From the NCBI GenBank assembly GCA_021234155.1, contig JAJEKV010000085.1:2676706-2740705 (forward strand): DNA of 64,000 bases. The letters run 5' to 3'. A model generated the notes under the pieces. The model saw only the letters and a program-made list of their open reading frames with translations, made no database searches and had not been told where the DNA came from. How positions within the stretch are numbered: position 1 is the first letter of the stretch; the number at the start of each line of letters is the position of its first letter. This document shows, piece by piece, positions 2,350 through 53,320 of the stretch. Position numbers and translations under genes: made by a program. The DNA is from Isoetes taiwanensis (taxonomy: Eukaryota; Streptophyta; Lycopodiopsida; Isoetales; Isoetaceae).

Positions 2350-3525
2350 TCAGGTATGGGCTGGGGATGGGGATTTATTCTGAACAGCTCTCCAAATCAT
2401 CTTAGCAGCCAAAGCTTGTGCCTGTAGGAATAAATCTTTGCATCCCATCCCTCCTTCTTTCCTAGATTTGGTTAGATCATCCCAAGCCACTTTATGTACC
2501 CCTTGCCAAATAGATTTCCTGATGGCTGCTTCAATCTTACCATATGAGGCGTTATCACCTATAATTGCAGAGGAGAAGTACACATGAGTGCTCCCAATTA
2601 CAGCATTAGCTATCTGAATTCTGCCTGCCAAGGACATGGAGGAAGAGCATGAGCCAAGCTTCTTTTTTATCCGAGTCACAATTGGATCCCAGAGTCCTTT
2701 GAGAGAATAATTTAATGCTAAAGGAATGCCCAATATTACTGTACCAGCATCCTTGTTTAGAATCTTAATTCCTTGCATAATTTTCTTTACAGACTCCAGT
2801 ATAATGGCACTTTTGTTTTTATTTAGACACACCCCAGATATCATACCAAATCTTTCCATTGCTGATAAAAAATTTTGGAGACTCTCACCTTCCTTCCTCA
2901 AAAAGACAAAAGTGTCGTCAGCATACTGCATTATTGAAAAAGTACCTTCCCCTCCTGGTAACTGCAGTGACTGAATGTCCCCTTTATCTTGCATATGTAA
3001 TACCAGTTTTTTCAATGCTTCTGCTACAATCAAGAAGAGGTAAGGGGCAAGAGGACAGCCTTGCCTTACCCCTCTTCTGCAAGGGAACTTATCAGTAGAG
3101 GATCCATTGATAATTAAAGCTGAAGATGCTGTTATATTGAATCCAAAAACTTTTTGATAGACCTTTTCAGATAATCCCAAATGGGCCATGGCTTTCTCCA
3201 ATAATTGCCAGCTGATTGTGTCATATGCTCTCCTGAAATCCAGCTTGAGCAACAAACATTCTTGTTTAGACAGTTTATTCCAGTGGAGTCCTTCAGCAGC
3301 CCCAATGTAATTGTCTAGGATGTTTCTTTGGGGGAGAAAAGTAGACTGACATGGATTAATTACATTGATAAGACAGGACTTCAGTCTGTTAGCAAGGATC
3401 TTAGCCAACACCTTGTAAGTGGTGTTTGTCAAGGAAATTGGCCTCCAATCACCTATATTTATTGGGCATCCCACTTTAGGTATCAAGGTAATGTAGCCAG
3501 CATTCATATCTACCTGGCTTGCCAT
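2350..3525 (-). pseudogene. LINE ORF2 reverse transcriptase domain
   Basis: RNA-directed DNA polymerase of a plant non-LTR (L1-type) retrotransposon. The 391-residue open frame carries the usual blocks in order: LIPKVG and DWRPISLTN, motif A (LDFRRAYDTISW), motif B (RGVRQGCPLAPYLF), and the catalytic QYADDTF box, followed by the thumb and a K..GG.G.KD motif. The catalytic Asp residues are present. The frame overlaps the endonuclease frame at 3510-3525, and the peptide reads naturally across the joint, so a small frameshift separates the two halves of one ORF2. It ends at the insertion near 2340. The element is therefore dead, although this domain is well kept. Confidence 0.92.
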
Positions 3526-28399: not shown

Positions 28400-30590
28400 T
28401 GCCCTACGCTTCCGCATATTTTCTGTTTTTGGAGTCATTTTCCCTACTTGTATTGTATTATAGAATTGCAGATCGTATTACGTTAAAGCAGTCAATAAAT
28501 ACAAAAGTCAATAAATACAAAGTATGGACGATTTTGAAAGATGAAGCATGCATTCATACGAGGGCAATCTAGTTTTAACAAATTTTTGTAAACAAATATT
28601 CCTTACACAAAATATATTGCCTCCTATGCAACAACCCTTCCTTTATAATCCTTTAGTTCTTTTTGGGTTGCCCAAAGGGCAAACCCTAGGGATGGGGCTA
28701 ACCCTAGGGGTGGGGCTGTGGTTGTGGGATATGCCCCTCATATTCTAATTTAAAGGTGTAGATGTCGGGAAAGTTATGATTTGAGGGCTTAGATTAAAGC
28801 TAGAGCTAAGCTAGATTGCACATGGCTTACTGTGAACATTAACATCAGTTTCCTGTAAACATCATGCACCACCACCATCCACATGATACCTACTTTATGA
28901 GCAAACAGCAATGGGCTAACCATACAATACCTTATCTCTACAAAATTCTCTACAAAGTTCAGCAAAATCCAATCAAATGCCCAAAAATCCTAAAATTTCC
29001 TGTCCAAATAATTATGGGGATGGTAAGATATACCCTGCATAGTAGCGCTCTGCAGATTTTCACCTGAAAGTACACATCCTCGCAAGCTCGCACCATTGAA
29101 TACCGACCTATTAAATCCTTGCATTAGACATGGAACTCATAGGCCAAATATAGAAACTATTTAAATGAATGCATGGAATCTCACTCGCGCAGTATTGCAT
29201 TGTGAAAGTTTGCACTATCGGCATCTGCACACTCAAATATGTTGGATTCAGTGACTGATATGTTGTGGAAAATAGAATGAGGAATATAGGTACAGATACA
29301 TGGAATTTTGCAGCCTGCAAGTTTGGTCGAGAGAAAAATGTTTTGACAAGATGTGAATTACTGAAATCTACACCAGACATATCCTGCATAAATTATATCC
29401 CTTACCACAAAATGTAACTTTGTTAAAAACAGCCCTACATATATATGTTGAAAGCATATGAAGGGCTTCACCCGATTCTTGATGAGGATGGGCAGCTAGA
29501 AATTAAGGAATCAAAACAACATAACTAGCAGTTGAAGAGAACTATAACTCTTGTATTTTCAGTATAACCAATTTATTGTATAGTTCACCTTTTGCACATT
29601 TGTTTTGTAGAATGATAGATTCTTTTTTCGTGGTATACATTTAAAACTTGCAAAAAAAGAAATTTCTATATTTAAGAAAGGCATCATTAAGAATTTCTAT
29701 GTAGAAAAGAATTGCTCGGCATCATCAAGAAAGGTGCCATTCAAATCTATGTTAAATTGCACTGCTTGCAAAACGGGTAGTTTAGCCTTCTCATATCAAC
29801 CTGAAAATTGAGATAGAACCAGCAGCCAGGCTGCTCATAAAGGCTTTATGGCATAGCAATGCAGGAGGTTAAGCTTGTATAATGCTTGACTTTAATATGT
29901 CCTGTGCCCTATGGAATCTTGCCTCTTCTAAGATGCCATATCCCTATGAACCGTATTTGCAGATAAAAAATGGCATGCACTATATATCTAGAAAATAACA
30001 CAAAAGTGAGGGGAGAAAGCAAACGATGGTGCATTTCCAAATTGAGCTCCATCCAAAGGCAGATAACTTCTCCATCCGTTGCAAATTTTTTAACACCAAA
30101 AGCACATCAAACCATATTTACAAATGGTTCAGTGCAACCAATTTGTAAATAGGAACTTGCAACACATATTCTGAGGCCTTGAACTGGATCCAGTGTGATG
30201 GTGAGATCTGCTAATAAGAAAACATAAGCATTTCCTCACAAATAAAAAATCTCGTTTGTTATGATCGAAGGAAAAGTAGCAGAAACAGCAGCATACGACC
30301 CGAAAAAGGCTCTAAAACAGGCAACCCGAAAAGATAGCACCATGGCGGTGCCGGTTAGCCTGGTTTGCACAGCTGCCGCCCAGTGACAATGATGACCGCC
30401 AGTTTAGAGGTAACAACAAGTTTGGAGCAGTTTCCAGCATATTCTAGGCATATTCGAGCATATACTTAGAATATGTCAAAAACCCACATAAGCAAGGGTT
30501 TTTCCCCCTAAAGCACAATTTCATTAAAATGAGAAATTTCGTGATTCCAATTAGGAACGAAAATCCTTTTTAGTCAATTTTATGCCATTT
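28400..30590. other. AT-rich spacer
   Basis: No supported gene, RNA or repeat array. Confidence 0.5.
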
Positions 30591-30833
30591 TTACGAGCAA
30601 TTATGGCGCCATTTAGAAAAAAAATGCACCTGAAGTGCCATTTATTGGCGCCATTAAAAATACTAACAGTGCATATAATGAAGCTAAAGAAACATGACAT
30701 CACAAAATTAGTTAAAATTTCTAAATTCATAGATTTGTATATCAAAAAATTTGCCACAACAGGCAAGGACTCGGAAGAGGGAGTCTGTTTACAAAAGTAT
30801 TATTGTACAATTTACATTACAATCACACAAAAT

Positions 30834-33800
30834 TCAGGGTTCCGCATCAGGATCAGGTTCCACAGTAGGATTCTGCAGTGCCAGTGCCATGGCTAGAAGA
30901 AGCACCCATAGGATCTCCTTGAAAGCTCTCGAACGCTGTGGCAGTGAAATTGGGATCATCAAGAACATCCAGATTGAATTGTGTGTTCTTTGATCACTTC
31001 ATAGTCCACATCGGGTTGAGCTTGGTATCATTTGGATTTGGTGGATCTACATCTTCTTGAAAACATCACCTTGTCTCTCTGTCCACCGCGAACCGTAGCG
31101 ATTAGGATTCAAGAGGTCAAGCCTACCAAGAATGCCCTACGCAGTCTTTGCCCCTAACCGGTCACTTTTTCGAACACAATGCAAAATCTCTTATTCATCA
31201 ATGGAGCCTGGCCAAACGAACCCACGGAGAAGTAATCAAACACTCCTTTTCTGGCCGGAACCATTTTCGCACGCGAGGTAGGAGCATGTGGCGACCCGGT
31301 TTGGTTTCTCATGATTATGTCCCCTGGCAAGCTTTGCCGGTATTACTGAATCTCTTTGTTTGAGCTTCCGACCATAGCCTCGGTCTCCGTCTGCGTCTTC
31401 TTCATTAGGTCACGGAACTTCCGCGGTTCTTGAGGATGATCGGCAAAAAAGCGGGGAATCGAGGTCAATTTCATCGACAGGAGGACTGCGGTGGCGCTGA
31501 ATTTTGTGGCGTACACTAGTGCATGGACCTCCCGAACTCCACAGGGCAGGTAGTTCTTGTATTCGTCCTCATACATGCCAATAAAAACTCGGATTCGGAA
31601 TCGGATCATCCAACACTGAATGAAATCAAAAAGTTATGCTCGGCCTTGCAAAATACACTATCGAGAAAAGAATCACCGTGGGTGTTCTTTTTACACCGTT
31701 GTATCAAAGAATTTAGATAGTGTGGTTTTGTCCCACATTAGAGTTATGCCTCTAGTGTCTAGGGCTATCAAGGATGCTGGGTGCAGAGTGCAAACAACTT
31801 GCCCCTGGCTGTCGATTAGTTCAACCGCCTTGAAGTCTTGATATCCTCTCTCTGCAAGACAAGATTACAGTATAAATCTTGCCAAGGCAGTGGCACGTTA
31901 CACGAAAACTCCTTTCTTGGTCACTCCAACTTCAACCCACTTACTATGCAAGGTGGCCATGGAAATCAGGGTCGGTATCCTCGAAAACCGCCCGCAGCGA
32001 TCTTTGGGATCGATGAAGGATTTGAACTTCCTCGGAAAATTATCCTTCACATATTCAAAAATCTCCTTCTTCAAGAACGATATAGATCATAGTGTCTTTG
32101 CCCTTGTCTTGAAGAACTGCTTACCTGTATAATCAGTGGTGACCTTCACGAAGGTCTTTCCATCCAGCACTTCCTGGAACAAAATCCGACAGTCTTCATA
32201 GTCGAGACCCCTCATGCACCTCAGGTAGGTCTGACTGAAGTAGTCACACTCTTTTGCCCAGTTACAGGTAATAGTTTGTCTCTTATTATCTGTTAGCTTG
32301 CAAGATTTCCACAAGTTCCATAGGGACATGAATAGCTGAAAAATATCCTCTGGCATGAAGACCCACTGGTTGAAATCTTTCAGTTGCTTACCACGCATGG
32401 TAACTTTAGCCAAAGCCAGATAACGCTGGAAACAAGAAGAAGTTAGTTTTGAATGCAAATGAATATGAAATGGCGCCGTGGCGCCATTTGTTGAGGAAAT
32501 GGCGCCGTGGCGCCATTTGCTAATCTTGCAAATAATTAAAGTACGATGTACCTTGTACGGTTCTGAGCGTGATTGCCCACGTCCAGATGGATCAGGCTTT
32601 CCGCAAAGAGCATATTGTTGCCGCAGGTGGGATATTTTGTCAATGAAAGGCTCCTTGAAGATAGTCTTGGCAGCGATATCATTGACTTCACAACTGAGCT
32701 GCAACCACTCTTGCTCGTTGACAGTGCCAGACAAGACTCGGCAATTCCGATACTCATAAATCTTTGCCATTTGTTCTTGGGACTTTCTTTGTCTTGCGAG
32801 TCTTTTACATACAAGGCGGCGGCCATAACGTATCGATTGCCATTCACTATGTAATAGTGCATCCCCATGAGGTCATCCTCGCCTTTCCAAGGGGTGTAGT
32901 TTCTTTGTGAGGGGATTGAATGGAATCCGTCCGCATGAGTAAAACACCCGGATGTGGGTGCTGTTTTGAAAGGATTCCACTAAGGTCTTCCGTGCTCCAT
33001 ATTTCTTCCTAGATGTCGATTTGCGGGCCCTTGATATAGGCTGAACCGTTTATTCGTTTTATAAATGTGATGCCCGGAGGAAAAAAGATGGCGGTGCTCA
33101 ACGATCTTACATAGCGTGTTCTCTGCCATCTTCTCCTCTTACGATCTTTCCACCTTAAGATTTGCGGGCACCTCGAGCAAGTCTTTGAGCTATTCTTAAT
33201 GTAAGCTTACGCTCAAAGCTTACGAATGGTGACCCTTTTTGGCGGTGTGCCCGAGAATCTTGGATATGTGATGGGCTTGGAGGAACTTCACCACCATACG
33301 GCTGCTTTCGTCGGCTCCTCTCGATTCAGTCTTGGACTTCAGCCGGGACTTGGAGTCAGGAGTCTCTCTCCTCTTGTTTTTAGGTGTCCTCTCCTTCTCG
33401 GGTCTACGCTGTGTTTCTTCTTCTTCTTTTTCCCTTCTATTTCTTCTGGCTCCCCTTCCTCTCCCTCCTTTTCCTGCCCCGCCTTTCCTTCCTTCCGCCC
33501 TTTCCCGTCCCTTTCTTTGTCTTTCTTTTCCTTGTCTTTCTTTTCCTTCTCTTTCTTTTCCTTTTTTTCCTTCTTTTCTTTCTTTTCTTTCTTTTCCTTC
33601 TTTTCCTTCTCAGGATCTTCGTGATCCTTTCTCTTAACTTTCCCCTTGTCCGCCCCCTTTCCTTGCTCAGCTTCCTGGCCAACATCCTCGATGCTTGGAT
33701 GAGGAGTCTTTTCATTTGCAGTTGCCGCTTGCCCCTCCCTAGTTTGTCTTGTCTTCTTCCCGCTAATTGTTTTTAGCCAGGCCGTGTCCACAATGACGGG

Positions 33801-34124
33801 TAGTTTCTGCTGGGCTAATGCCTTGACAACGAATGAAGCCGAGTTTTTCGATTCATTCAAACGATTGCAAAGAATCATAAAACCCCTCAAGATTTCTTGT
33901 GGACCTTTGATGTCAGCTTCTTCAAAGCTGTTGTATGATGGCAGCGCCCAGCCTTGCTTCCTCGCCGAACCAGCTACATTTGCGATACTAGCAGACATTA
34001 CAGTGGGATCATAAAACTTCCAGTCCACATAGTAGACAATTATTCTCTGCTTCACGGTGTCCTCCACGGACCACCCGGATCCAATCATGTGGCCGCTCTT
34101 GCTAACTTGCCTCATGTTTACCAA
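30834..34124 (-). CDS. unrecognised multi-exon gene, possibly of a mobile element
   Basis: A run of coding-like minus-strand segments in order. 34124-33339 is a 261-residue N-terminal frame. Then comes about 32960-32552 (GFHSIPSQRNYTPWKGEDDL, VNEQEWLQLS). 32425-32125 follows (FNQWVFMPEDIFQLFMSLWN, RCMRGLDYEDCRILFQE), then 32086-31898 (EIFEYVKDNFPRKFKSFIDP), 31849-31697 (QDFKAVELIDSQGQ, VCTLHPASLIALDTRG) and about 31605-31343. A last piece ends DPDAEP at 30834. Plausible splice sites are AAG/GTACAT with TTCCAG/CG (32551-32426), a GTAAGC donor at 32124, and a TTGCAG acceptor near 31852 with a GTGTAA donor at 31696. A TGA at 32087 and a shift near 32770 interrupt it. I know no family with this architecture. 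It may be a host gene, but the surrounding palindromes suggest an element. Confidence 0.5.
33339..34124 (-). CDS. N-terminal exon of the unknown gene, with Lys/Glu-rich linker
   Basis: Open frame of 261 residues. The first ~130 residues are of mixed, globular composition (VEDTVKQRIIVYYVDWKFYD, GPQEILRGFMILCNRLNES, LPVIVDTAWLKTISGKKTRQ). From about residue 150 it turns into a highly charged tail dominated by KEKKEKK and KDKE repeats, ending with KKKKKKHS. The DNA behind the tail is a near-pure CTTTTCCTT-type tract, so the length of the tail will vary between alleles and the opposite-strand frames over it are artefacts. The globular part is unknown to me. The charged tail could be a flexible linker or a nucleolar or DNA-contacting segment. 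Confidence 0.55.
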   Translation of the reverse strand: MVNMRQVSKSGHMIGSGWSVEDTVKQRIIVYYVDWKFYDPTVMSASIANVAGSARKQGWALPSYNSFEEADIKGPQEILRGFMILCNRLNESKNSASFVVKALAQQKLPVIVDTAWLKTISGKKTRQTREGQAATANEKTPHPSIEDVGQEAEQGKGADKGKVKRKDHEDPEKEKKEKKEKKEKKEKKEKKEKEKKDKEKKDKERDGKGRKEGKAGQEKEGEEGEPEEIEGKKKKKKHSVDPRRRGHLKTRGERLLTPSPG

Positions 34125-34722
34125 GATACCCGGTGGTAAATTCCGGTGATTATGGGTGCCGTCTCCTTTATAGCGGCCAGGCTCTCTTCTCTGATCTCCT
34201 TTCGAGCTGTAGCGGTGGAGGGCTCACCGCATTATTTCCATGCACCCGTTACTTTGTCTATGCGGCATCATAGTGCAGTCGGATTGAAATTGTATTTCGG
34301 GCGTAATATAAGCTGCAACAAAGAGGCATCCGGTAACAAAGAGGCATCAATAACTCTCGGTTTGAAACAAGCGGCGCAGACCCGGGCGACTAAGCAAATG
34401 GCGCCATGGGCGTTATTTGTATCTGGCGATGCATAAGCACATGGAAGCAGCTCTCTATTGCATTTCCACTGCGTTTGTTCGCGAGGCCTCCGACCAGGTT
34501 GAGCCCCTCCCCGCCATAAATTCGAGGGAAGATGGTTCGGGAGTGGCCTGGCCCCGGGTGGAGGGCACTGAACTCGCATGCACTCTGAGCGTAAGACAAT
34601 GAGAAGCAATCTACCAAGCAAATGGCGCGATGGCTTCTTACTCCTAATGCATATGCTTGAATCGTCCCATTATTATTTATGGACGACTCTGATACAAATG
34701 GCGCCATGAAGCCATTTTAACA

Positions 34723-34951
34723 ACAAGACTCTAAAGTAAGCTACTTCGGCATCCAATGGCCATAGCGCCATTTACCAGAAACAAGACCCTAAAGTAGACT
34801 AAGACATCCAAATGGCGCGGTGGCGCCATTTACCAGAAACAAGATCCTAAAGTAGACTAAGACATCCAAATGGCGAAGGTGCCATTTCACAAAACAAGAT
34901 CCTAAAGTAGACTAAGACATCCAAATGTGGGGCGGTGGCCCATTTAGAACA
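34723..34951 (+). repeat. tandem array of ~58-bp units carrying the GGCGCC palindrome
   Basis: Four units begin ACAAGA(C/T)CCTAAAGTAGAC at 34723, 34781, 34839 and 34894 (spacings 58, 58, 55). Each ends with a copy of the AAATGGCG...GCCATTT dyad, increasingly degraded to the right. Confidence 0.88.
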
Positions 34952-36089
34952 AACAAAGTCAATGCAAGTAGATTACATACTGCCTTTTCCCTGCTTTCAT
35001 TGTCTCCACGGTGAGGAGCTCCAGTCTCCAAGGCTGACTTCCATTTCGAGGAAAGATGATTTTTGCCCTTGTTCAGGTTTCCCGGACGAAGAGGTGAGGC
35101 GCTGAACCTGAGGGAAATGGGCCAACAAAACACTAAAACCGAGGAGGCTAAAAGAGTTGCTCGAGGCGGCCATCGCCATTATTATTTATGGGCTAAGATG
35201 ATCGAAAAATGGCGAACAAATGAGGTCCTCGGGCAAACATTGAGGCATAACTAACTTTGCCGTAACGTGGTATTGCATCAAAGGGGCCAACTAGGACTAA
35301 GTTTAGCCCAGCGACATGTCTGCCCAGTCAGTATTGCATGCGTGGCGATCTAAAGAAGACTAAGCATCATGCCCGGCGGTTCAGCGCCCATGCAGCCAAA
35401 TTTGAACTTTCTTTCGAATATTTCCTCCACCGATTCCGCCCGAGGAGCCAAATTTGAACATAAAATTCAAAAAATCCGCTTGATTTTTGAAAACTTGCCA
35501 CACCGCAAGTGACATAAAATTCAAAATTCCCGCAGAAATTGAAATTTGGCCGCCACTGGCCAAATTTGATGGAAACCCTTTAAAATTTGTACTTTGTGCA
35601 TTTAAAAACCCTCTTTTGTCGCCGTGCTCCCCTTAAAGCGACCATGCCACGCGGTCGCAGACGTTTTTGTGCCGCGATTCGGTGGCTTTTAAAATCCGCT
35701 GCTTCGTCTGCCATTAAAACCAGCATAAAGTTTCGCTTCTTTTCTCGGCGCTAAGGCGAAACTTTGCAAAAATTCAAATGCATCTTTGTCGGTAAACTTT
35801 CTTCTTGCTTAAATCCCCAGATTGATTATTGGCTCACGAAATCCCAGGTGATTCTTGGCTTTCTTCTTAATGCTCAGTTCTCTCTTAAATTCATCTGCTT
35901 GGATCAAAAGCTTTCCTGTTTCTATCTTGCTCCCGTACATACCACTATGGATACATCTAATATAAAAGTAAGTCAACTATTTACGATAGGAATTATGTTC
36001 TATTGCTGCCGTGTATAACGTGTTCAAATGTTGATATTCATACTGCTAGGACACTAAGAACCTTAGTTTCAATTGCCAAGTTGGCATGG

Positions 36090-36165
36090 GGTGCCCATGT
36101 TATGCATGCCTACTCTTATTGACACATATACAGCAATGGGAGCAAGAATGCATAACATAGGCACC
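36090..36165. repeat. imperfect inverted repeat
   Basis: GGTGCCCATGTTATGCAT on the left is matched by the inverse ATGCATAACATAGGCACC on the right, with further pairing inward to a 12-14 base loop. It lies at the right side of the palindrome district. Confidence 0.75.
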
Positions 36166-36325
36166 TCGTGTAGATTTTGTGATGGAGCTAAGCCAAATCG
36201 CCCCATGGCACCCACTTGGATCAAATGGCGCCGAGCCATCAAATCCCAAATACAATAAAATGGGGTTTTGATGCAGATAAGCCATAAGCGCCATTCAGTT
36301 GAAATGGTGTACGGTCGAAATGTAA

Positions 36326-36359
36326 ATTTGGAGCTAAATGGCGCCATTTAGCTCCAAAT
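36326..36359. repeat. perfect 34-bp palindrome centred on GGCGCC
   Basis: ATTTGGAGCTAAATGGC and its exact reverse complement meet at 36342/36343. A further copy of the right half with extended flank (CATTTAGCTCCAAATTTAC) follows at about 36391-36409, making a larger inverted arrangement with the left flank at 36322. Confidence 0.92.
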
Positions 36360-36742
36360 CCAAGTGTTCACCATTTCTACCAAATGGCGCCATTTAGCTC
36401 CAAATTTACACCAAAATTTATTCTTTTGTACTAAATGGCGCCAATTTTGCTTGTTTAGTGCTTATTTTTCGTCTAATTCATATGTTCTAAAAAGTAAAAG
36501 CTTGCTTGATTGAAACGGGTTCAATTTTCCCTGTACAACCTATTAAATCGGAAGGACAATTGTTGCGGGGCCATATTTTGAATAGAACCACTCTTCATGG
36601 GAGGAAATAGATCCTTTAAATGTAGCAATTGAGGTCCGAAGTCCACGGTTCCCATCGTGAGCTTCCGGTCCCTGCCGGAGGCGGATAACATTGGTGAAGC
36701 GGTGAGGCACATTCATTCGATGGCCTATGAGGGATGTAAAAC

Positions 36743-39700
36743 ATGTTGAGTGCCCCAAGTGAAGATCGTCTTGAGATCCCTCAATTTGCCCTCTTGGAAG
36801 AGGATTCATCTAGTAGTCCATCACATTCGTTGGCCGCCACAGGACATCGGTTTCACTTTGCTCATTGTGGTGAACCAAGCAACACGGCAACAAAAAAGAA
36901 GAGGCGAGATAGTAGAGGAGATTGGAGGTCATGAGAATCTGGCTGCCCGTCTTGGTCTCGGGTTGTTTAAGCACGAAGATGAGATGATCTACTACTCGAA
37001 ACGGATCTACTAGGTTTGCCATGCTACATTCTTCACTCCTGCATTGGATCTAAGTATTGGGAGGCGAATATAGTCTTTAGTGATCCTCGGGATGCTATAG
37101 GCGATGAGTTCTTGGGTGAATCAAAGGTCGGGCTTTGGGTGGATAACATAATAGATCCAACGGAAACCAAAATATCAGGTCATGTCATGCTTGTCTTTGA
37201 GAGGCCTCTAGCTAACAGATCTAGTAACACGGAAGACCCATGATGTTTTGCTTCATGATGGTAGGACGGTTTCACAACATTTACAAGCTCGAGCTGCTCT
37301 CGAGCGAGGATGACTTAGAAGGTGAGTGCTTGGAAGGCGATGTTGAGAAGCAATTCAAGAGGGAAAAAAATATACATATGTGAAGAGGGTCGGGGAGGGA
37401 ACCAAAGGGGGATAGCAAGGAGGAGAGGATGTGCGCTTCAAGACAATCAAAGGTGCTCTAAAATCAACATCTTTGCAAGGGCGAATGTGTCAAAAACTGG
37501 CCCGAGAGCAAGTATGTGCCTTAAGAAAAAATTTTATTCTCAATCAAAGCGGTGCGAGTTAAGCTTGTTTTGATGTGTTGAGTGTAACCTATGAGGCGGG
37601 GAGGCCGAAAGTAGTGGTCTCTGGGTGGAGTCACTTTTCCAATTCGCATGGCGGCGTGGCTTTAGGAGTTGCTCGGGTCGTTTTATAGTTGGAGGAAGAG
37701 GTTCGAGTTAGGTGGAAAAGCGGGCGACATGGTATCTGAGCTCTAAGAAGCCTAGATGCGTGACACTAGCTTCTGACGGAAAGTGTGCTTGATACCTTTA
37801 TTAGTGAGAATCGCGGAGAGCATTCCACATAGAAACAAAAAGGAAAGGATGATATAAGGGAGAATGTTAGCAAACTTCCTTCTATCCTTAATAAGAAGAG
37901 CATACATAAAGGAAGTGGGTGCCATGGTGGAAAGAATTGGCGGAAAGAGTGTAACCTTGCCCTCTTTTACAATATTTGGAAGAAAGAGTTTCAGGGCGTC
38001 GACATAGCAAAAAAATCAGCATTCTCCAAGTGTAACATATGTGTAGTCATCAAAGCGAAATGGAAAAGAACAAAAGATACAAGGGAGAGGCGCAACCTTT
38101 CAATTCAGCGGCGGGCAAAGATGTTGGAACAACGTTCTGTAAGTCAATATTGGCATTGGCGTGCATTATCACATCGTTTGCGAGAAAGTCACCTTTGCAT
38201 AATACATGATAAGATGGATCAGGTCAAAACACTCACACCAAGAAGTCACCATCTACTTAAAGTGTTTTTGGAGAGGAGATCGCTTGAAGAAGCGACTTGG
38301 CGGGAGCATTGACACATGGTCATGGTGGGCCGGGCTTATGGCCATTTCTCTCTTGATCTTTGGAAGGATGACTCAAACTTGCATGTTGGATCACTTTCTA
38401 GGATCCTACACTATCTTGAGTTCTTGGGAAGAAGACAAGTGTGGTGATACCGTGTGGAAGGCGAGAACTACAGTTGCAAATTGATGCAAGCCTAAAAGAT
38501 ACTCGACCACTTTGCAGCATAGGCTAAGCCTTGACACACAAGAGAAGATGCCTTCATCTTCTAGTGCCTACTTAGAAGGCTTCAATCCTCTTCCTCGAAA
38601 TCTCTACTTACAGGTTGGACAATGCATCGGGTCAAAATAAAAATAGATATGTGTTCTCCTACCTCTCTTATTTGACATGGCTTAAGGTATTGATGAGATT
38701 CAGGTTGGCTTCATGATGGTTGGGCACACTCATGGCGATATTGATGCATTGTTTGGGAACTTTTCGGCGTTAATGAGTTCATCGGATGCTCTAACTTTGC
38801 ACGAGTTGCTTTACTTGTTTAGCAAGTGCAATGCAAAGTCTCCTGTTCCATATTTTGTGGATGAAGTTCAGTTGGAAAGGCTTTGTCAAGGGATATATCC
38901 CTGATAAGACCAACGTCTAACGAGGCCATACCGACCCATTGCTATTCCGATTTAAAATGGATGGGAAATGGCCAACCCATAAAGAGTGGATTCGGAAAAT
39001 GGAATAAGAATGTGGAAGGAGGATGAAAATGGTGAGCCAGCGTTACCAACGAGGGGTGCCTAAAATATCCCTCAAGGAAGACATTGAAAGATCTCCACGG
39101 CCGGCGCGGACAACATCAGCAAGTACATAGCATTATGGAATTCCTTACGCAAAAAATCAAGAAGATAGTGTGTTTTTGCCGGCCGATTACAAAGCAACTA
39201 TGGATTCTTGGAGCGAGATTCTTTTGTGTTTTGGAAGATGTATCTCCGGGGCGACCTCAAAATGATAACTTTTGGTTGCGTTACAAGGCAAGAACCTCTA
39301 CAAAGTTTGCATTTACTCCGGAGGTCGATGAAGCCGCGTGCTTGTAAGACCTTTGCCTATGTATTGTGGGACGGCGGATGGGCGTCGGTGTTACCTATGG
39401 ATGAGTTTGATCCTCATGCACATATTCACGAAAGGTATGTTCGTTTTAGTCCGACACAGAGGCGATGAAACTCCAACGTGGTTGGGCTTTCTGAGAAAAA
39501 GATGCCATCCTAGATCGAGTCTACCAATTATGGTCACATTTATGTATCATGGTGGATGCACATTTGGTGCGTTGACTATCTCGAGGTTCGCGTAACTAAG
39601 CGTTGGCGACCCAATCCATCGGATCCATCAAGGTATGAAGTTAGATGCCATACATTATGCATGGGATGCAAATGGCAAAAGACCGAAGGCTGTTCCGATT

Positions 39701-39846
39701 CAAAATACATTGTTGACATGTGGGGGGACATAGCATTAGCTAAAGCTCTCAATCTCAGTCATGTTCTCGATAATCATGTATGTAATTTCTTTTGCTATAA
39801 TCTGATTGCATTTTGGACAATTAGTACCGGTCGATACATCAATTAG
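36743..39846 (+). pseudogene. DUF7869-like transposon-associated protein, heavily frame-broken
   Basis: Plus-strand segments in changing frames spell a large protein of the DUF7869 type, a family seen in plants and animals and linked to repetitive elements. Recognisable blocks are FYNIWKKEFQGVDIAKKS (about 37965) with a K.CNICVVIKA pair, SHLCIIHDKMDQVKTLTPR (about 38190-38245), YGHFSLDLWKDDSN (about 38340), LDNASGQNKNRYVFSYLSYL (about 38613, needing frame changes), and VGHTHGDIDALFGNFSALM (38722 onward). A downstream part has YEVRCHTLCMGCKW and DSKYIVDMWGDIALAKA (about 39630-39760). The VGHTH..ID core and the DNA..NKN box before it are the strongest family marks. There are many single-base shifts and stops. 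The biochemical role of the family is not established. Confidence 0.62.
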
Positions 39847-40189
39847 TTTTCATTATGCTTATACTACATCCTTACATCTTTTATAATAGGTGTTTAATAC
39901 ACATCATTACATCGATGCACACATTATTGATGGCATACATATAATTTAGATGCACATATTATTGATGGCATTATAGAGTCGATGATTCACTCATCTTCAA
40001 TCCACAACTAGCGTGATCCCATTCAGCTTTCGTAGGCATGGCGCTCGGGAAGCCAAAGAAGATGGATCACAACCACGATGGACCAAATAATGGTCTCAAA
40101 CCGATCTTCATAAATATTATAAGCCATGGGGAATGAATGACTTCTACCCTTAGTCAATGGAGCTCATTTTATAATCCATTGTAGAATTA

Positions 40190-40800
40190 TTGGTATAATA
40201 CTTTCAGCATTATTGGTATTATACGTCAGCATTATTGGTATTATACTTCAACATTATTGGTATTATACTTCAACATTATTGGATTCGTAGCTTTAAATTC
40301 TTTCACCTTGCTTTCACTTCTCACTTTTCACCTTGCTACTTGATCTTGATCCTTGCTTCTTGCTCCTTCATCTTCCTTGATCTTCTTGTTACTTGATCTT
40401 CCTTGTTCCTTGATCTTCTTGCTACTTGATCTTCCTTGTTCCTTGATCTTCTTGCTACTTGATCTTCCTTGTTCATTGCTTCTTGCTACTTGATCTTGAT
40501 CCTTGTTCCTTGCTACTTTATTCCCGTGCTCCTTGCTACTTAATCTTGTTCCTTGCTCTTGGTCTTGCTACTTTATCTTGTTCCTTGCTACTTGATCTTG
40601 ATCCTTGCTTCTTGCTCCTTGATCTTCCTTGTTCCTTGATCTTCTTGGCACTTGATCTTCCTTGTTCATTGCTCCTTGCTACTTGATCTTGATCTTTGTT
40701 CCTTGCTATTTCATTCCCGTGCTCCTTGCTACTTGATCTTGTTCCTTGCTCTTGGTCTTGCTACTTTCTCTGCTCCGCTCCGTGTTCCTTGCTCCGTCTG
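40190..40800 (+). repeat. minisatellite and CTTGATCTTC-type simple repeat tract
   Basis: 40193-40275 holds about four copies of ATTATTGGTATTATACTTCA. 40320-40770 is built from CTTGCTACTTGATCTTCCTT and related 11- and 33-bp units, with larger blocks repeated (for example 40380-40450 resembling 40612-40680). Leu/Ser-rich frames across it are by-products of the repeat. Confidence 0.85.
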
Positions 40801-41500
40801 TGATCCTTGCTTGCTTTTGCAAATGATTGGACCCAATCCCCCCTGGGCTACTCCAGAAGGCCTGCAAGCATGCCCCAGCCATTCTGTGCGGCCTAGAACT
40901 GATGAGCTATTTGACCATTTCTTGGGTGGAGGTTGCGCCTGATCCCACCAAAGAGCTTACAATGGAGTTGATCAACTTCATTACAGGCGATTTGATTGTG
41001 GTCATGAGCCCTTTGATGGAAATTAATCCATCGAATGTTATAGGAGACTTGCAATGAGGGGAATTCTTGAACCCCCTCCTTTTTTGGGCCCGAGATGCTA
41101 CGACAATTGAGGCCTCTTCTTCGTCTTTGGATATTTAGCACACTCTGCGGATCAATACATATCGAGTTCATTCATGAAATTTGTAAAATGCGGATGTATG
41201 GCCTTATTAGGGGCGTACTACAATGAGTACAACAGTTTTGTGGAGTTAGGTCCGGCTCTTCTTCCATGAGTATCATCCTGTGGAATTACTTTTTTGCAAT
41301 GACTAGATACCCCATATGGTGGGAAAGAATCCCGGTGGGATATCGTGAGCTCTGGTTTCCTAACCCGGATGCATGGGTTAGACCTGTGAGGAAGGGAAAG
41401 GGGAAGGGGTTAGGAACTTGGGAGAAGGTTACTAGGGACATACATAGTTCATGCCGGTCTCTATTGTGTTTGGAAGTTGGTATATGATCACAGGTGTTAT
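40800..41500 (+). other. weak coding-like remnants, unknown
   Basis: Short plus-strand stretches such as LTMELINFITGDLIVVMSPL look coding, but no frame exceeds 100 residues and no family is recognised. They may be remains of the element to the left. Confidence 0.25.
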
Positions 41501-41538
41501 TATGTTCTCTAAATATTCATGTATATGTATGATACCGC

Positions 41539-41672
41539 GTGCTGCGTGTATACAACCCCACGAAAAGGTCTATGATCTGAGTCTTGTACGTGTATACAAC
41601 CCTGCATAAGGTCTATGATCACAGTCTTGTGCTACGTGTATACAACCCTTGCATAAGGTCTATATAACCCCA
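41539..41672 (+). repeat. ~54-bp tandem repeat, about 2.5 copies
   Basis: CGTGTATACAACCC followed by AAGGTCTATGATC and AGTCTTGT repeats with small indels. Confidence 0.7.
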
Positions 41673-41699
41673 TAAAAAAAAATTCCAGTTTACTAAAAT

Positions 41700-44330
41700 T
41701 TTTTCCATTATAATGAAATTGTGCTTCCCTAGGGCAACCCAAAAGCACACATTAGGAGTTTTTTGTAAGGTTCTCTAGCTTTGTCCACTGAAGTGGAGCA
41801 TCCTTCTTTATCTGCTAGCATGGGGAATTGGTGCGGATTCCTCACCGCAAACCCTCCAGAACCTCTCTAGCATGTTGGGGTCATCACCGTGCGCTAACAA
41901 AAGCGTGAATGCAACCTCACAAGGTGGTCAACATGAATAGGATGTGTAAAAGATTGGCCAAGTCGTGTAGTTGTCCATATACTTGACCCGACATGTGCAT
42001 TGCCTCTAATTGCAATTTCTTTTTGCCTTCATTTTTCGATATCCTTCATATCATTTAGATGTTTCCAATTACTCGGTAGCACCTAGAGAGAGGTCCTTAC
42101 ACCCCCCCTCACTTATTAGCCTTTGATTGATGGGAATATCGATTAGAGCATTCATATGTGAGGCATGACTTCGGCCTCGAGTCCATTTTCACGCCATACT
42201 ATTTTGTTTATCTAGGTGGGTTAGGAGACTTCGGGTTTATGCATCCTGCTTTCATCCCCATAATAGATGTCTCATGTGTTATCACCGAGAACAATGAGGG
42301 TATGTCTGTATAATTCCGCAGTTTAAACTAGAGGTGTGAATCTTTGTTTATCAATAGATGACCTAACATAAATGAGAGCTATCGCGATGATAAACAACAT
42401 GCAAAAATTAGAACCATAGCATTCCAAGACTAATCATATTCGCACCACCCCTGAGGTCCCAAAATGTGAACCAGCGATAAAGCAAAACTAGGTAGATAAG
42501 ATCGAATCGTAAACCACGAAATATACTTTATCGGACAAGCAAAAGCATCGGAAAAGAACTACAGGGCAGCCAATCCCGTCTTATAGAAGCCTATAAAAAA
42601 AGCTTTCGGATGTCCGCGGACCAAGAATGGCTATGGCTATGGAAAGAGCGATGCCAAAACCTCAAAAGACCCACAAAAGAGATTCCTGCAATATATCTCA
42701 TCATCAGGAATAGAGGCAAACACCACATCACTAACAATATTATTACGTAATGCGAAAGAATCAACAAAGGGGCAAAAGATGCGCATCCATTCTAGCATAT
42801 GTCCAACATTATAAGCCCACATTGTCCCTCAATAACACGCAAATTATAACAAAGTGAATATGTTCTAATAGCTTGGCCCATCTTCCAATAACATAAGACA
42901 TAGCTAGATAATCCACGTTTGAGATAGAATTCATCACAAAGATAGCATAGGGCATACCAACTACCATATTTGGCAGTTAGTTCTTAGGAAGATAACATAG
43001 ACATTATCTAGGACCCTCGCTAACATCTAAAACAAATAGCGGATGTTAAATTAAGCCTTCACATCGTTTGCTTCCAAAGTGGAGCGATAAAAAGATGCAC
43101 AATGCACGACTTGTATTCGATTTTCACGGCCTTTTGAAGGGCTTCTATCTCAAACCTTATAACATAATAACATAAATATAAGAGTTGCTTTTACAATGAT
43201 GGGAGGAAGATTGAAAATATAAACAACTAATAAAAGTCTAAGTTTAAGAAACAATGATAAAAGCAAATCCTTCACACACACCAAGTTGGATCCGGATCAT
43301 ACATCGGGCATGAAGTTTGTTGTAAGGCATGCATGTATGTCACAAAGGCATGCTTATAATGAGGAATCCTTGAGTATATTGAATTGAATGCTCTTGTCCC
43401 TTCCATGAAATTTTGTATTTGTATATCTGTTTTGAGATGCCTATAAGCATACAAAAGATTGAATTTTGGATAGCGATAGAATGGAAGAAGATATGGGCGA
43501 TTAATGTTACCAAGTAAAAGCCGATTTAGTAGCGGATATGAGCATAAGCCAAATTATAGAATAACCCACAAGATTTTAAACCCCCTCCGTTGAACATTGG
43601 AGCTATAGGTGGCCAATAATTCAAATGGGACCACGAAGCGATCCACACTATCGCTCACATCCTTTTATGCGTCATTTAGGAACAAAGCGGGAGGGCGGCC
43701 GGGCACAAATGGCATGTAATTTCCAAGACATTTTCTATTTTTATGGTAGTTAGATTAAAATTAGGAATCCAGCGTGCTCATCGGTTTTAGTGATGTGTCA
43801 TGTGATGTGATGTGGTGATGTGTCATGTGGCGTGGATAGGCCCAAATTTCGGGGAATCGTTGTAGGGGAGGTTTGGCAAGCCTACTAAAAAATGTGTTTA
43901 GCCCTTTCTAAAACAAAGCCGTAGAAGAGAACATTTTGCAAAGCGTAGATCTTCCGCCTTAAGTGAATCCTTGGGTAGGGGTGTTAAGGGGCGATAAGCC
44001 CTAGCCCTCCAGAGCATTCTTGCAAAAACTTCTTAGGCCATGTGACCCATGACCACACACCCCCTCACGATTTGCCCATGGCCACATGGCCCTCAATTTT
44101 TTTTTTTTTTCCCGTAATTGCCCAGCCAGGGTTGTTATGTACAACATATTCTTGAATATTGTTTTGAGTAAATAAGTATGAACGTTGGCTGGTGGTGATG
44201 TTTTTTTTATTGGTTTGTAGAATTGTGTACACTGTTTGGCATGCAGATCTAAAATCACGTCAGAAAATGGGAATCAGTCTGCACTAAATTCGCTGTTCAA
44301 ATGGGTATGGCGAAATATAAAAACAAGCTG
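41700..44330. other. intergenic stretch without supported genes
   Basis: Only short, unsupported frames are present. A poly-T run lies at about 44096-44110. Confidence 0.45.
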
Positions 44331-44341
44331 CAAATGGACGG

Positions 44342-45496
44342 ATGGAGGAAAAAATGGAAATGATTGTTACAGTGATGGCAATGCAGATGCTGGCCATTCA
44401 ATCTACCAAAGCCAGCTGCTGCCCAGGAATTTACAACACAGAATGGCAACGGGCTGGGGCAACATGGTGCGGGCGAGCCCCAGGGCGACGGAACGGACGG
44501 TGCGGATTCATCCTCCTTAATCATGATTAGGACCTTCATTAGCACTCTAATCTCTCATTAATCTTAATAATGGCGTTCTTGATTTTCCTTAACAGCTGGA
44601 GCTTGTGGCTATGGCGACCTCGCCATTTCCGCCTACGGCAGCCGCATGAAAATCCGCCAGGCGCCCCTGTTCAGCAAGGCCATGGCTGTGGCGCTTGCTT
44701 TCAGATCAGATGTACCCTTCCCTTTGCCGCCCTGATCCTATCCCGTCGTCATCACAGATAGAATGCCCTGGCGGTGATTTTTGTGGCAATAATCAGATCC
44801 ATTTTGACCTCAGTGGTACCGCCTTTGGCGATTTAGCCATTACAGGACGAGATTCCGATCTCAGAAACGTCGGCGTCTTGCCGCTGTTGTACAAGAGGTT
44901 AATTTCGTTCGGTTTCTTCTATTCAGTCTAAAAAATTGTTCGTTTTTTGCTGAAGATTAGTGTAATTTCAGGATTCCGTGTTCGTATGGCGGAGAAAATG
45001 TTACAGTGGAGATTGATCCCGGGGGTTCTACTCCTCATTTGGCTCGTGGTGAGATATCAAGGAGGAGCTGGAGATTTAAGATCGGTAGAGATTCAGGCCA
45101 AGATTAAATTTTTCTTTTTCTTGTTTTGCACATAATGAATCCAATGCACATCAAGAAGGTAATTTTAGAAATAAACAGGGATTTAACAAATTTTTCTGTT
45201 TCTTACATGAAAATTCTATGAAGCCAATGAAGGGATTAAGAAGCTGAATTGTCAGGATTAAACAGTGATTAACAAGAATAGCATACTGCTTTGTGCAGGC
45301 CCAACAGCAGTGTTTGGCAGCCCTATGAGCCATGGTGGGGGCAAGCTGGGATTTTTGACGGACCCATTATCGCTCCGGTGTCCTTGAGATTTAAATCTGG
45401 AATAGCGGGAAAGGTGCTTGTGGCCCCAAATGCTATCCTTCAAAGCTGGCGCCAGGTCGAACTTATGATACTGGCGTACAATTTCCTACTGCATAA
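44342..45496 (+). pseudogene. beta-expansin-like gene with at least five frame breaks
   Basis: Secreted wall-loosening protein of the expansin superfamily. A likely signal peptide starts at 44342 (MEEKMEMIVTVMAMQML). Domain 1 shows WQRAGATW, then EPQGDGTD in another frame, an intron 44500-44595, GACGYGDLAISAYG, CGACFQIRC, VVITDR, CPGGDFC, and the HFDLSGTAFG box typical of beta-expansins. A second intron runs 44898-44971. IPCSYGGENV and GGAGDLRSVEIQ begin the grass-pollen-allergen-like domain 2. A third intron ends at 45298, and the last exon has WQPYEPWWGQAG and ends YDTGVQFPTA at 45496. Breaks occur at about 44474, 44667, 44760, 45040 and 45460, with at least one more near 44725. The donor of intron 3 cannot be fixed and the GTGCGG donor of intron 1 is weak. 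It is a decaying copy or a locus with sequence errors. The beta-class call rests on the HFDLSGTAFG box and the C-terminus. Confidence 0.8.
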
Positions 45497-50640: not shown

Positions 50641-53320
50641 TCGGTATAAATTTATCTGAGGAAGAAAGGGAAGGAGTAGTGCACACTTACATAACCAAGC
50701 TTGTTGTTCTTTGAGATGTACGTATTATTATGGAGCATCCTTTGGCTTACTTTTGCATGCTGATTGAAACATTACAACTGTTCAAAATATACTCTCTCGT
50801 CACTTTCATAGTTCACACAATTCATTAGTATCTCATCCTCATTTTACGTAGGCGTCCGGACTTGTCATTTTGCTGCGGATTGGTAATCCCAGGGCCTAAA
50901 CTTCCCTTCTGTCTTGTTGCCTGATGCGGTAGGCTTTATCGATGGGGTAGCATTCTCTGGCTCCCACATTACTTGCGTCATATATAACATCCTTAAGTTC
51001 ATTAGGATTGTGGCTTTGTAGAAGCCCCGTTGACCTTTGCTTTTAAGGACAATCTTGGGGCTAAAAGTCGTAAAAAACAATGCACTTAAACTTCCACGAA
51101 AGCGAGATTTATCTCAAATTCCGAACTACTTTAATCCTAGAAATGGTGCCTTAAAGACCTCAATTTGGGGTTGTGTACCCTTTTTCTGTTGGCTTTAGCC
51201 ACTAAAATACACCATATTATTCTAAGCGTATGATTTCATACCATTATTTAGGTTGAGCGGCGTGAGGTATAAAATTATACGATGATGGAACTCTCCTTGG
51301 TATAGATTTATCTTTGCGAGGAGTTACTATATAAATTTATACCAAAAGAACGCGGGCAGGGATAAATTTATCGACAGATATTCAAGCGATATAAATTTAT
51401 ATGGCCACGTGCTCCATGGGGTCCTAAATTTATCTGGATTAGAACTCATGGGTAGAACTTAAAACTTCTCGTGTCCTCACTTTGTTGCCGAAGGTAGTAG
51501 GATAAACTAGCTAGTCTGTACAAGATTAGTCTAGTATGGACCTTAAACAAGCTCTAAAAAAATCAATGGGCCATGGATGGAAGTTGTCTTCTGGCGCTAT
51601 GGTGCCCCAACTTCCTAAGGTGGAGTTTATATCCCTACCTACAAAGGGTGCATGTAAGGCAAAAGTTTGCTTAGCGAGGATGTGTGGTGAGTTGGTATAG
51701 GCTAAGTAATGCCAAAATAAGTGTGCATTTGCTCATGGGTTCAAACCTTGTCAATGTATGTTTGTATCTTTGGGAGTTATTCTTTGGGGGTATCTGATGG
51801 TGATCCCAAACGTGGTAGAACTTAAAAGCCTTCTCGTGTCCTCCACTTTGGGTGGCGAAGGTAGTGGGATAAACTAGCTGATGCGTACAAGATTAGTCTA
51901 GTATGGACCTTAAACAAGCTCTAAAATCAATGGGCCATGGATCGTGGGTTGTCTTCAAGCGCTATGGTGCCCAACTTCCTAAGGTGGGATTATATCCCTG
52001 CCACCACAAAGGAGTGCATGTAAAGGCAAAAAGTTTTTGCCCAAGCGGATGTGTGGTGAGGTTGAGCATAGGCCTGGTATGCCAAAATAAGTGTGCATTT
52101 GGTCATAGGTTTTCAAACCTTGCCAATGTATGTTTTATCTTTGGGAGTTATTCTTTGGGGGTATCATTGATGGTCCCCGGCGTGGTAGAACTTAAAAGCC
52201 TATCACGTGTCCTCCACTTTGGCTCTGCAAGGTAGTGGGATAAACTAGCCTATCGTGTCCTCCACTTTAGCTCTCTTAGAAGGTAATGGGATAAACCTAG
52301 CTTTGATGCAGCCCATAAGATTGATCTAGTATGGACCTTAAACAATCTAACAAGCTCTGCGGTTTATAATCTTTATTACTTTGTTTTGGGTCCGCGCAAA
52401 CTAATCGCGCTAATCTTATCCCAACGCCTTATCCAACAAAGTGGAGGACATCTCAAACTTTAAGACCTACCATACAGGAGATCTATACCCCGATGATAAC
52501 CAGCTCCCAAGATAAACGCTCCCATTGACAAGGTTGAAGACTTATGACAGCTCGCACATTGTGGCCAAACATACCCAGCTTCACCCTCGCCGAACAAACT
52601 TTGCCTTACTATGCACACTTGTAAGCGAACTAATCCATACCCAGAAATACGAGTCTACAAAGAACAACTACAGGGCATGAAAGCACAGCACTAAGCCATC
52701 CTAGTGCCACCTACTATAGATCCCATTGTTTTTTTATTACTTTGTTGAAGGTCCATACTAAGCTAATCTTGTACGGTTAAGCAAGCTTATCCCAACACGC
52801 CTTGCGGCGACAAAAATGAGAGGACAGGTATAGGCTTTAAGTTCTACAGCGTCGGGGATCATCATCATACGCATCGGTATAAATTTATACCATGTATTTT
52901 ATGGGCTTCCGGTATTAAATCATACCAATAGACCATCTATAGAACCGATAAAAAAGATTGAAAGAAATGGAGAATTAAAAAAGGTCAGGGTTGGAGACTT
53001 ACATAGCCATGTCAGGTATAGAATTACTTATATAAGCTTTTGAAGGAAAAAATAGGCGAGTATATATAAAAGGTAGGATCCTTGAGCACCTTGAATCAAA
53101 CAAGCTTATCTGGCGAGGAAATGGATCGCCCCTACAAACCTTAAGTACTTCGATATATCGCTTTAGTATAGCGAGTTTTCTATAGCGGTTAGTATCACGA
53201 TATTGAACTTCGGTATAAATTTATCTGATCTACGTATAATTTATATCATCTGTAAATTTATACCCGGTCGAGTACGTGTTGTACTTGCCACATTTTAGTA
53301 TAAATTTATCACTTGCGATA
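50640..53320. repeat. cluster of TATAAATTTAT(A/C) near-palindromes
   Basis: GGTATAAATTTATC or GATAAATTTATC-type words occur at about 50641, 51330, 51364, 51388, 52873, 53210, 53250 and 53298, with weaker copies between. They flank the 360-bp units described next on both sides. Confidence 0.7.
51450..52860. repeat. ~360-bp units in direct and inverted orientation
   Basis: Direct copies start with TAGAACTTAAAA...CGTGTCCTC at 51452 and 51818, with a partial third at 52187. They carry TAAACAAGCTCTAAA, AATGGGCCATGGAT and GTGTGCATTTG. Inverted partial copies lie at about 52400-52560 and 52735-52850. Copies differ mostly by single-base indels. Confidence 0.75.

Follow-up and report, generated by a model that had tools for sequence, protein, structure and literature searches.

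A cluster of GGCGCC palindromes in a 64,000-nucleotide stretch of the Isoetes taiwanensis genome (the window; contig JAJEKV010000085.1, positions 2,676,706 to 2,740,705) belongs to one decayed copy of a large DNA transposon with at least two genes, here called gene A and gene B. The element covers 11,216 bp (30511-41726) and is present in hundreds of copies in the genome; in the window copy, palindromes precede each of the two genes and also occur inside a predicted intron of gene B and close to one element end. A first-pass annotation had proposed a mobile element of about 6 kb with its own repeated palindromes. Mobility is backed, since the element has inverted repeats and target duplications, its ends number in the hundreds, and motif and gene are linked, but the proposed size was too small, and the half holding gene A, with its DUF7869 domain, had been overlooked. 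The account that we consider rather likely is that, in the active element, the gene A protein would cut and join DNA and the gene B protein would bind the palindrome arrays as a DNA-binding partner.

Ends, size and target site duplications

Alignments of gene B copies end sharply at a single point, window position 30511, which has its inverted counterpart at 41726. The terminal inverted repeats of the window copy are 21 bp long and identical at 20 of 21 bases, and the element termini are AAGCACAATTTCATT. A six-kb element was rejected since copies with both ends span the points corresponding to these two positions. Alignment of copies, which had been proposed as a check, gave a perfect 4-bp target duplication at the shared ends of 19 of 20 other copies (14/14 long and 5/6 short). 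The duplication of the short element L083 is off by one base, and that of the window copy is 5 bp long. When flanks were paired across different copies as a control, agreement over 4 bp was seen in 4 of 182 pairs. The long copies comprised four with both ends from eight fetched gene B copies, which had been picked for long open frames, and ten fetched from the paired-end search; L002, L004 and L005, each lacking one recognisable end, and L008, lacking both, were left out of the count. Paired end searches gave 13 further candidates, from which three long ones (20.9, 25.7 and 28.9 kb) were excluded.

Copies across the genome and linkage of motif and gene

The genome searched comprises 1,658,258,908 bases in 1,110 contigs. 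Exact terminal words were found in 413 and 439 copies, against 0 for reversed controls, and the palindromic word AAATGGCGCCATTT at 507 places (reversed word: 1). The first 100 listed ends of each type were paired at a distance of up to 30 kb, and 56 of the 100 gene A-side ends paired with a gene B-side end. Thirteen of these pairs measure 2,767-3,104 bp, 27 measure 10,187-12,713 bp, two measure 7.2 and 9.5 kb, and 14 exceed 16 kb, perhaps as nested insertions or mispairs.

The coding-like minus-strand gene described at first pass is present and repetitive: its frame at 33339-34223 (minus strand) has at least 143 genome matches, a lower bound, with 133 candidates scored of 38,761 at first look. 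Among the 30 matches on contigs covered by the listed ends, 18 are preceded within 25 kb by an exact gene A-side end in the expected orientation (13 of the 18 at 5.9-9.1 kb), and two have such an end in the wrong orientation. Gene B copies also occur in one orientation at a spacing of about 7 kb (contig C1049, positions 11516466, 11523470 and 11530386; contig C812, 349076 and 356130), which hints that the gene B half is repeated in tandem there.

The first-pass annotation had named two findings that would speak against its proposal: a motif spread evenly through the genome with no link to the gene, and gene copies without palindromes. All eight fetched gene B copies hold 4-25 copies of the palindrome core, TGGCGCCA, in 10 kb, and of the first 50 of the 507 palindrome places 43 lie in or beside the element family. 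Twenty-seven of the 50 have a gene B match or an element end at a distance of 13 kb or less. From the other 23 places 19 loci were fetched: ten have DNA similarity to the full element (reversed controls 0), two, holding five places, lie inside short elements, and one lies beside a diverged gene B. Six places showed no link (C18:64880, C107:185725, C266:105702, C354:84475, C423:143508 and C667:201674), and C778:860753 was not examined. The palindromes at these six places are perhaps in short elements, like those on C127 and C690, or in diverged families that use the same site.

Form and placing of the palindromes

At least eleven motif copies had been reported between 30603 and 36444. With up to one mismatch allowed, ATGGCGCCAT has 14 matches in the window, every one within that interval and far above chance (shuffled sequence: mean 1.67, maximum 6). 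The core TGGCGCCA occurs ten times in the interval and once outside it, at 45447 (0.68 expected), so the reported absence of the motif elsewhere in the window was nearly right; ten cores fall in the 11,216-bp element and one in the remaining 52,784 bp. The dimers, the tandem array of about 58 bp and the perfect 34-bp palindrome that had been described were located at 32467-32519, 34722-34952 (periods 55-58) and 36326-36359, respectively.

Among palindromic 8-mers, TGGCGCCA ranks first in both five full (90 copies) and six short elements (44 copies), and its flanks are mostly AAAT/ATTT. Eight sequences each have 7-18 convergent pairs of the half sites AAATGG and CCATTT within 40 bp; block shuffles give an expectation of 0.01-0.04. 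A gap of 10 leads in the full elements (12/18, 11/17, 8/15 and 10/14; window 4/10). Across the six short elements the counts are 19 for a gap of 2 and 13 for a gap of 10; the shorter gap leads in four of them and the longer in two (L082 and L084).

Intergenic DNA is the fastest-changing part of the element, at 71-73% identity in three 500-bp bins compared with 89-95% in the gene A half. Within it, motif columns are 87% identical and other columns 79%; motif columns had the higher identity in 18 of the 20 comparisons made, which were directed and not independent of each other, or in 14 of 20 with CpG positions alone. Because the motif columns are kept in such fast-changing DNA, a specific reader is favoured.

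Short non-autonomous elements

Six short elements of about 2.9 kb (L057, L059 and L081-L084) form one related family. Each carries 4-9 copies of TGGCGCCA (n=6), which makes the core about as dense as in the full copies or denser. Among the matches listed, the similarity to the full element takes in about 150 bp at the gene B-side end and about 140 bp at the gene A-side end, where weaker matches reach about 250 bp. It also includes a single stretch of some 170 bp, at roughly 5.0-5.2 kb on the scale of the full element, and short words (about 23-75 bp), most of which coincide with palindromes. Their interiors are mostly different from that of the full element, while ends and palindromes are kept. 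A tblastn search of two of them, L057 and L059, found no gene A or gene B match.

Gene B

Gene B runs divergently from gene A and has two parts flanking a Lys/Glu-rich linker. The first part is open over 581-603 aa in seven of the eight fetched copies and over 453 aa in L001. Both exact splice words of the predicted intron also occur in L001, L003 and L006, three of these eight copies; they were not found in L004. For exon 1 the ratio of non-synonymous to synonymous substitution rates (dN/dS) was 0.25-0.55, with a mid value of about 0.35, in 36 pairs from nine open-frame copies. Measured against L007, it was 0.10-0.37 in the C-terminal part, 0.16-0.39 in the N-terminal part and 0.35-0.55 in the linker. 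By these figures the predicted gene B protein is conserved.

Two candidate relationships were set aside. HTH_Tnp_Mu_2 appeared in a Pfam listing below cut-off (best E 0.053, 4 of 14 members) and was not relied on. A ParB-like character, seen by eye in the resemblance of YYIVNGNHSVMAA to the GERR region of ParB, received an hhalign probability of 0.3% in both tests, a weak comparison with ParB/Spo0J made with two small, very thin profiles, the second of which aligned the YYIVNGNHSVMAA stretch over 19 columns. Part of gene B searched against phages and plasmids gave best E values of 6 and 0.4, which is chance level. A 15-base near-copy of the terminal repeat lies at 34283-34297 (minus strand), in the 5' coding part of gene B; it has at most two mismatches in six of the eight fetched copies and three in the window, and is probably a coding coincidence.

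Gene A

The DUF7869 match of the window copy scores 60.9 bits with stops read as X, and the gene A of L015 matches at E 4.9e-42 and 144.1 bits, against a curated cut-off of 26. Pfam gave no tnp2 and no integrase match in the frames scanned. Sixteen DUF7869 sequences from this genome were aligned, and D309, H345, T346, H347, D348 and D351 are listed as invariant, and a first aspartate (D175 or D178 in L007/L015 numbering) is aligned in most rows that reach this point, though not in L073. The distance of 39 residues from D309 to D348 is the same as in many DDE/D enzymes. Gene A lies in a mobile element and shows this aspartate pattern, and on these grounds it probably encodes the DDD transposase of the element. 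Its dN/dS is 0.49-0.77 in six pairs.

Genome-wide, DUF7869 has 9,908 first-look candidates, and all 150 that were scored exceed the cut-off. A gene A profile run against viral contigs gave 54 pattern matches, none of them confirmed, and a search covering part of the literature found no paper on DUF7869 or on a GHTHEDID-type motif. Downstream of gene A lies a possible third coding region or last exon, for which the 274-aa frame of L007 had tblastn matches in five of six other copies searched and none in L002. Dense imperfect tandem repeats of CTTGATCTTCTTG type adjoin it inside the element, at 40331-40811.

Reading of the palindromes

Three other DUF7869 loci, of a different branch from gene A and with undefined ends, were read over 10 kb each; no gene B match and no TGGCGCCA occur in them. 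At L058, gene B is decayed and diverged, its best pieces being 38-56% identical, and ten copies of TGGCGCCA are present; neither gene A nor element ends could be recognised over the 16 kb read. Among these few loci the palindrome accompanies gene B rather than DUF7869 at large. On this evidence, and given that the short elements share them, the palindromes most likely serve as cis sites for a protein of the element, and the reader is probably the gene B protein.

With gene A supplying a cutting and joining transposase, the gene B protein would read arrays of inverted AAATGGC half sites, which frequently stand 2 or 10 bases apart. It may assemble a complex on the element, as TnpA does for Spm, and may tune both element promoters. 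It could also act in trans on the short non-autonomous elements.

It is unlikely that the DUF7869 transposase itself reads the palindromes and gene B serves otherwise, in export, anti-silencing or chromatin. The short elements, which depend on transposase, do retain the palindromes. However, none of the three other DUF7869 loci has TGGCGCCA, the sites of full copies are mostly promoter-like and intronic, away from the ends, and the gene B remnant L058 retains palindromes with no recognisable gene A. We regard as improbable to the same degree that the palindromes are host factor sites that drive element transcription. Clusters upstream of both genes and in the predicted intron would suit this, and the core resembles E2F-type GGCGCC sites. 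Against it, E2F sites carry a T-run, unlike the AAAT/ATTT flanks seen here. The short elements, of which the two tested have no gene A or gene B match, hold their four to nine core sites at the density given above, and most of the sampled genome places are tied to the element family. Satellite-like amplification or hairpin DNA with no specific reader is very improbable: some copies do lie in tandem arrays and the neighbouring intergenic DNA diverges fast, but the word tends to persist while its surroundings diverge, the spacings of 10 and 2 recur, and the word is common to elements with mostly different interiors.

Several observations weigh against a gene B reader of element-borne sites. Six of the 50 palindrome places show no similarity to the full element in 1.2 kb, and three of the ten loci linked by similarity rest on matches of 72-130 bp. 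The undefined element ends of the three DUF7869 control loci limit that comparison, and at L058, a remnant, no ends were recognised. In five full copies the 5 kb next to the gene A-side end hold no TGGCGCCA, which is unlike the placing of subterminal sites. One or both exact splice words were not found in five of the eight fetched copies. The dN/dS copies were picked for open frames, a selection that biases the figure down. The motif conservation figure comes from local alignments of repeats, and the difference was reversed in 2 of the 20 comparisons, or in 6 of 20 for CpG positions alone. Gene B has no Pfam match above cut-off, and the structure models of both proteins were too poor for use, with a mean predicted local distance difference test (pLDDT) score of 37.7 for gene A and 35.3 for gene B.

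Comparison with known transposons

The working model for a gene B reader is the maize transposon Spm, the best-known case of such an arrangement though unrelated to the element, in which TnpA binds repeated subterminal sites, both proteins are needed, and non-autonomous derivatives retain the cis sites (excerpts of PMC2613891). The element likewise combines a probable transposase with a candidate DNA-binding partner, a repeated motif and non-autonomous derivatives that keep the sites. The likeness to Spm/CACTA drawn at first pass thus holds for the layout with a repeated motif. It does not extend to membership: CACTA was rejected on termini, duplication length and domain, as the element has AAGCACAATTTC ends, a 4-bp and not a 3-bp duplication, and DUF7869, with no tnp2 in the frames scanned. 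Its sites also differ from those of Spm in being mostly promoter-proximal and intronic rather than subterminal, and gene B differs in having no Pfam match above cut-off.

Sola elements have 4-bp target duplications and inverted repeats of 11-1124 bp and are known from a moss (excerpts of PMC10741241); Sola2 target duplications are AT-rich in two amoebae (excerpts of PMC3627910). The 4-bp duplications, inverted repeats and size of the element fall within the reported ranges, and the candidate transposase, gene A, has three aspartates that would suit a DDD enzyme. Gene B and the palindrome arrays are absent from the Sola descriptions in the excerpts of these two papers. Duplication length, inverted repeats and the three aspartates fit the Sola superfamily, to which the element may belong.

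Ginger elements have TG...CA ends, repeats of 40-270 bp and duplications of 4-6 bp, and Mutator duplications measure 7-12 bp (excerpts of PMC10741241). Both are plant DNA elements with inverted repeats. The 4-bp duplication also recalls Ginger, which was rejected on the lack of TG...CA termini and of a Gypsy-like integrase match in the frames scanned; the 21-bp repeats lie outside the Ginger range as well. Mutator was rejected on duplication length. A search covering part of the literature found no paper linking ATGGCGCCAT with a transposon and a plant, and searches on motif or end words brought up no transposon paper among the titles listed.

Other features of the window

Features of the element are collected in Table 1. 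Outside it, a 391-aa reverse transcriptase frame (RVT_1, E 5.4e-35) at 2350-3525 on the minus strand belongs to a separate retroelement, and a tandem repeat of 371 bp in 2.2 copies lies at 51451-52249.

Table 1 Coordinates of the transposon copy and its parts in the window
Feature	Position	Strand	Basis
Target site duplication CCCTA, low side	30506..30510	.	Flank comparison
Whole transposon copy, 11,216 bp	30511..41726	.	Inverted ends, target duplication, ends common to other copies
Terminal inverted repeat, gene B side; 20/21 bases match opposite end	30511..30531	+	
Palindromes about 100 and 140 bp inward of gene B-side end	30602..30655	.	Motif search
Gene B, accessory protein, frame disrupted here	30834..34223	-	Stop-to-stop frames matched by eye to other copies
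Predicted GT-AG intron, 126 bp, with four GGCGCC (two palindrome dimers)	32426..32551	-	
Two palindrome dimers, within predicted gene B intron	32467..32519	.	Motif and intron search
Palindrome cluster upstream of gene B, tandem array 34722-34952 included	34395..34952	.	Motif and tandem repeat search
Palindrome cluster upstream of gene A, perfect 34-bp palindrome 36326-36359 included	36222..36446	.	Motif search
Gene A region, decayed probable transposase gene	36512..39790	+	Limits approximate, by eye from frames
DUF7869 (PF25273) match, E 1.6e-16, stops read as X	38584..38844	+	Pfam
Possible third coding region or last exon of gene A, decayed	40430..41341	+	tblastn, 274-aa L007 frame
Terminal inverted repeat, gene A side	41706..41726	-	
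Target site duplication CCCTA, high side	41727..41731	.	Flank comparison

Implications

It is possible, though we hold this more tentatively than the account of the element itself, that DUF7869 marks a large plant transposon group, undescribed or unrecognised by name, one branch of which evolved an Spm-like two-protein array system. In itself the element offers a second, apparently unrelated case of a transposon with its own control-site array and a candidate reader. This opens the question of whether two-protein array systems evolved independently, and whether gene B serves in transposition, silencing or both. If the proposed reading is true, gene B represents a new DNA-binding family that reads paired AAATGGC half sites across the element, beyond its ends, and non-autonomous elements must copy AAATGGC arrays to move. 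The DUF7869 domain, abundant in this genome and of unknown function, would gain a concrete role as a probable transposase.

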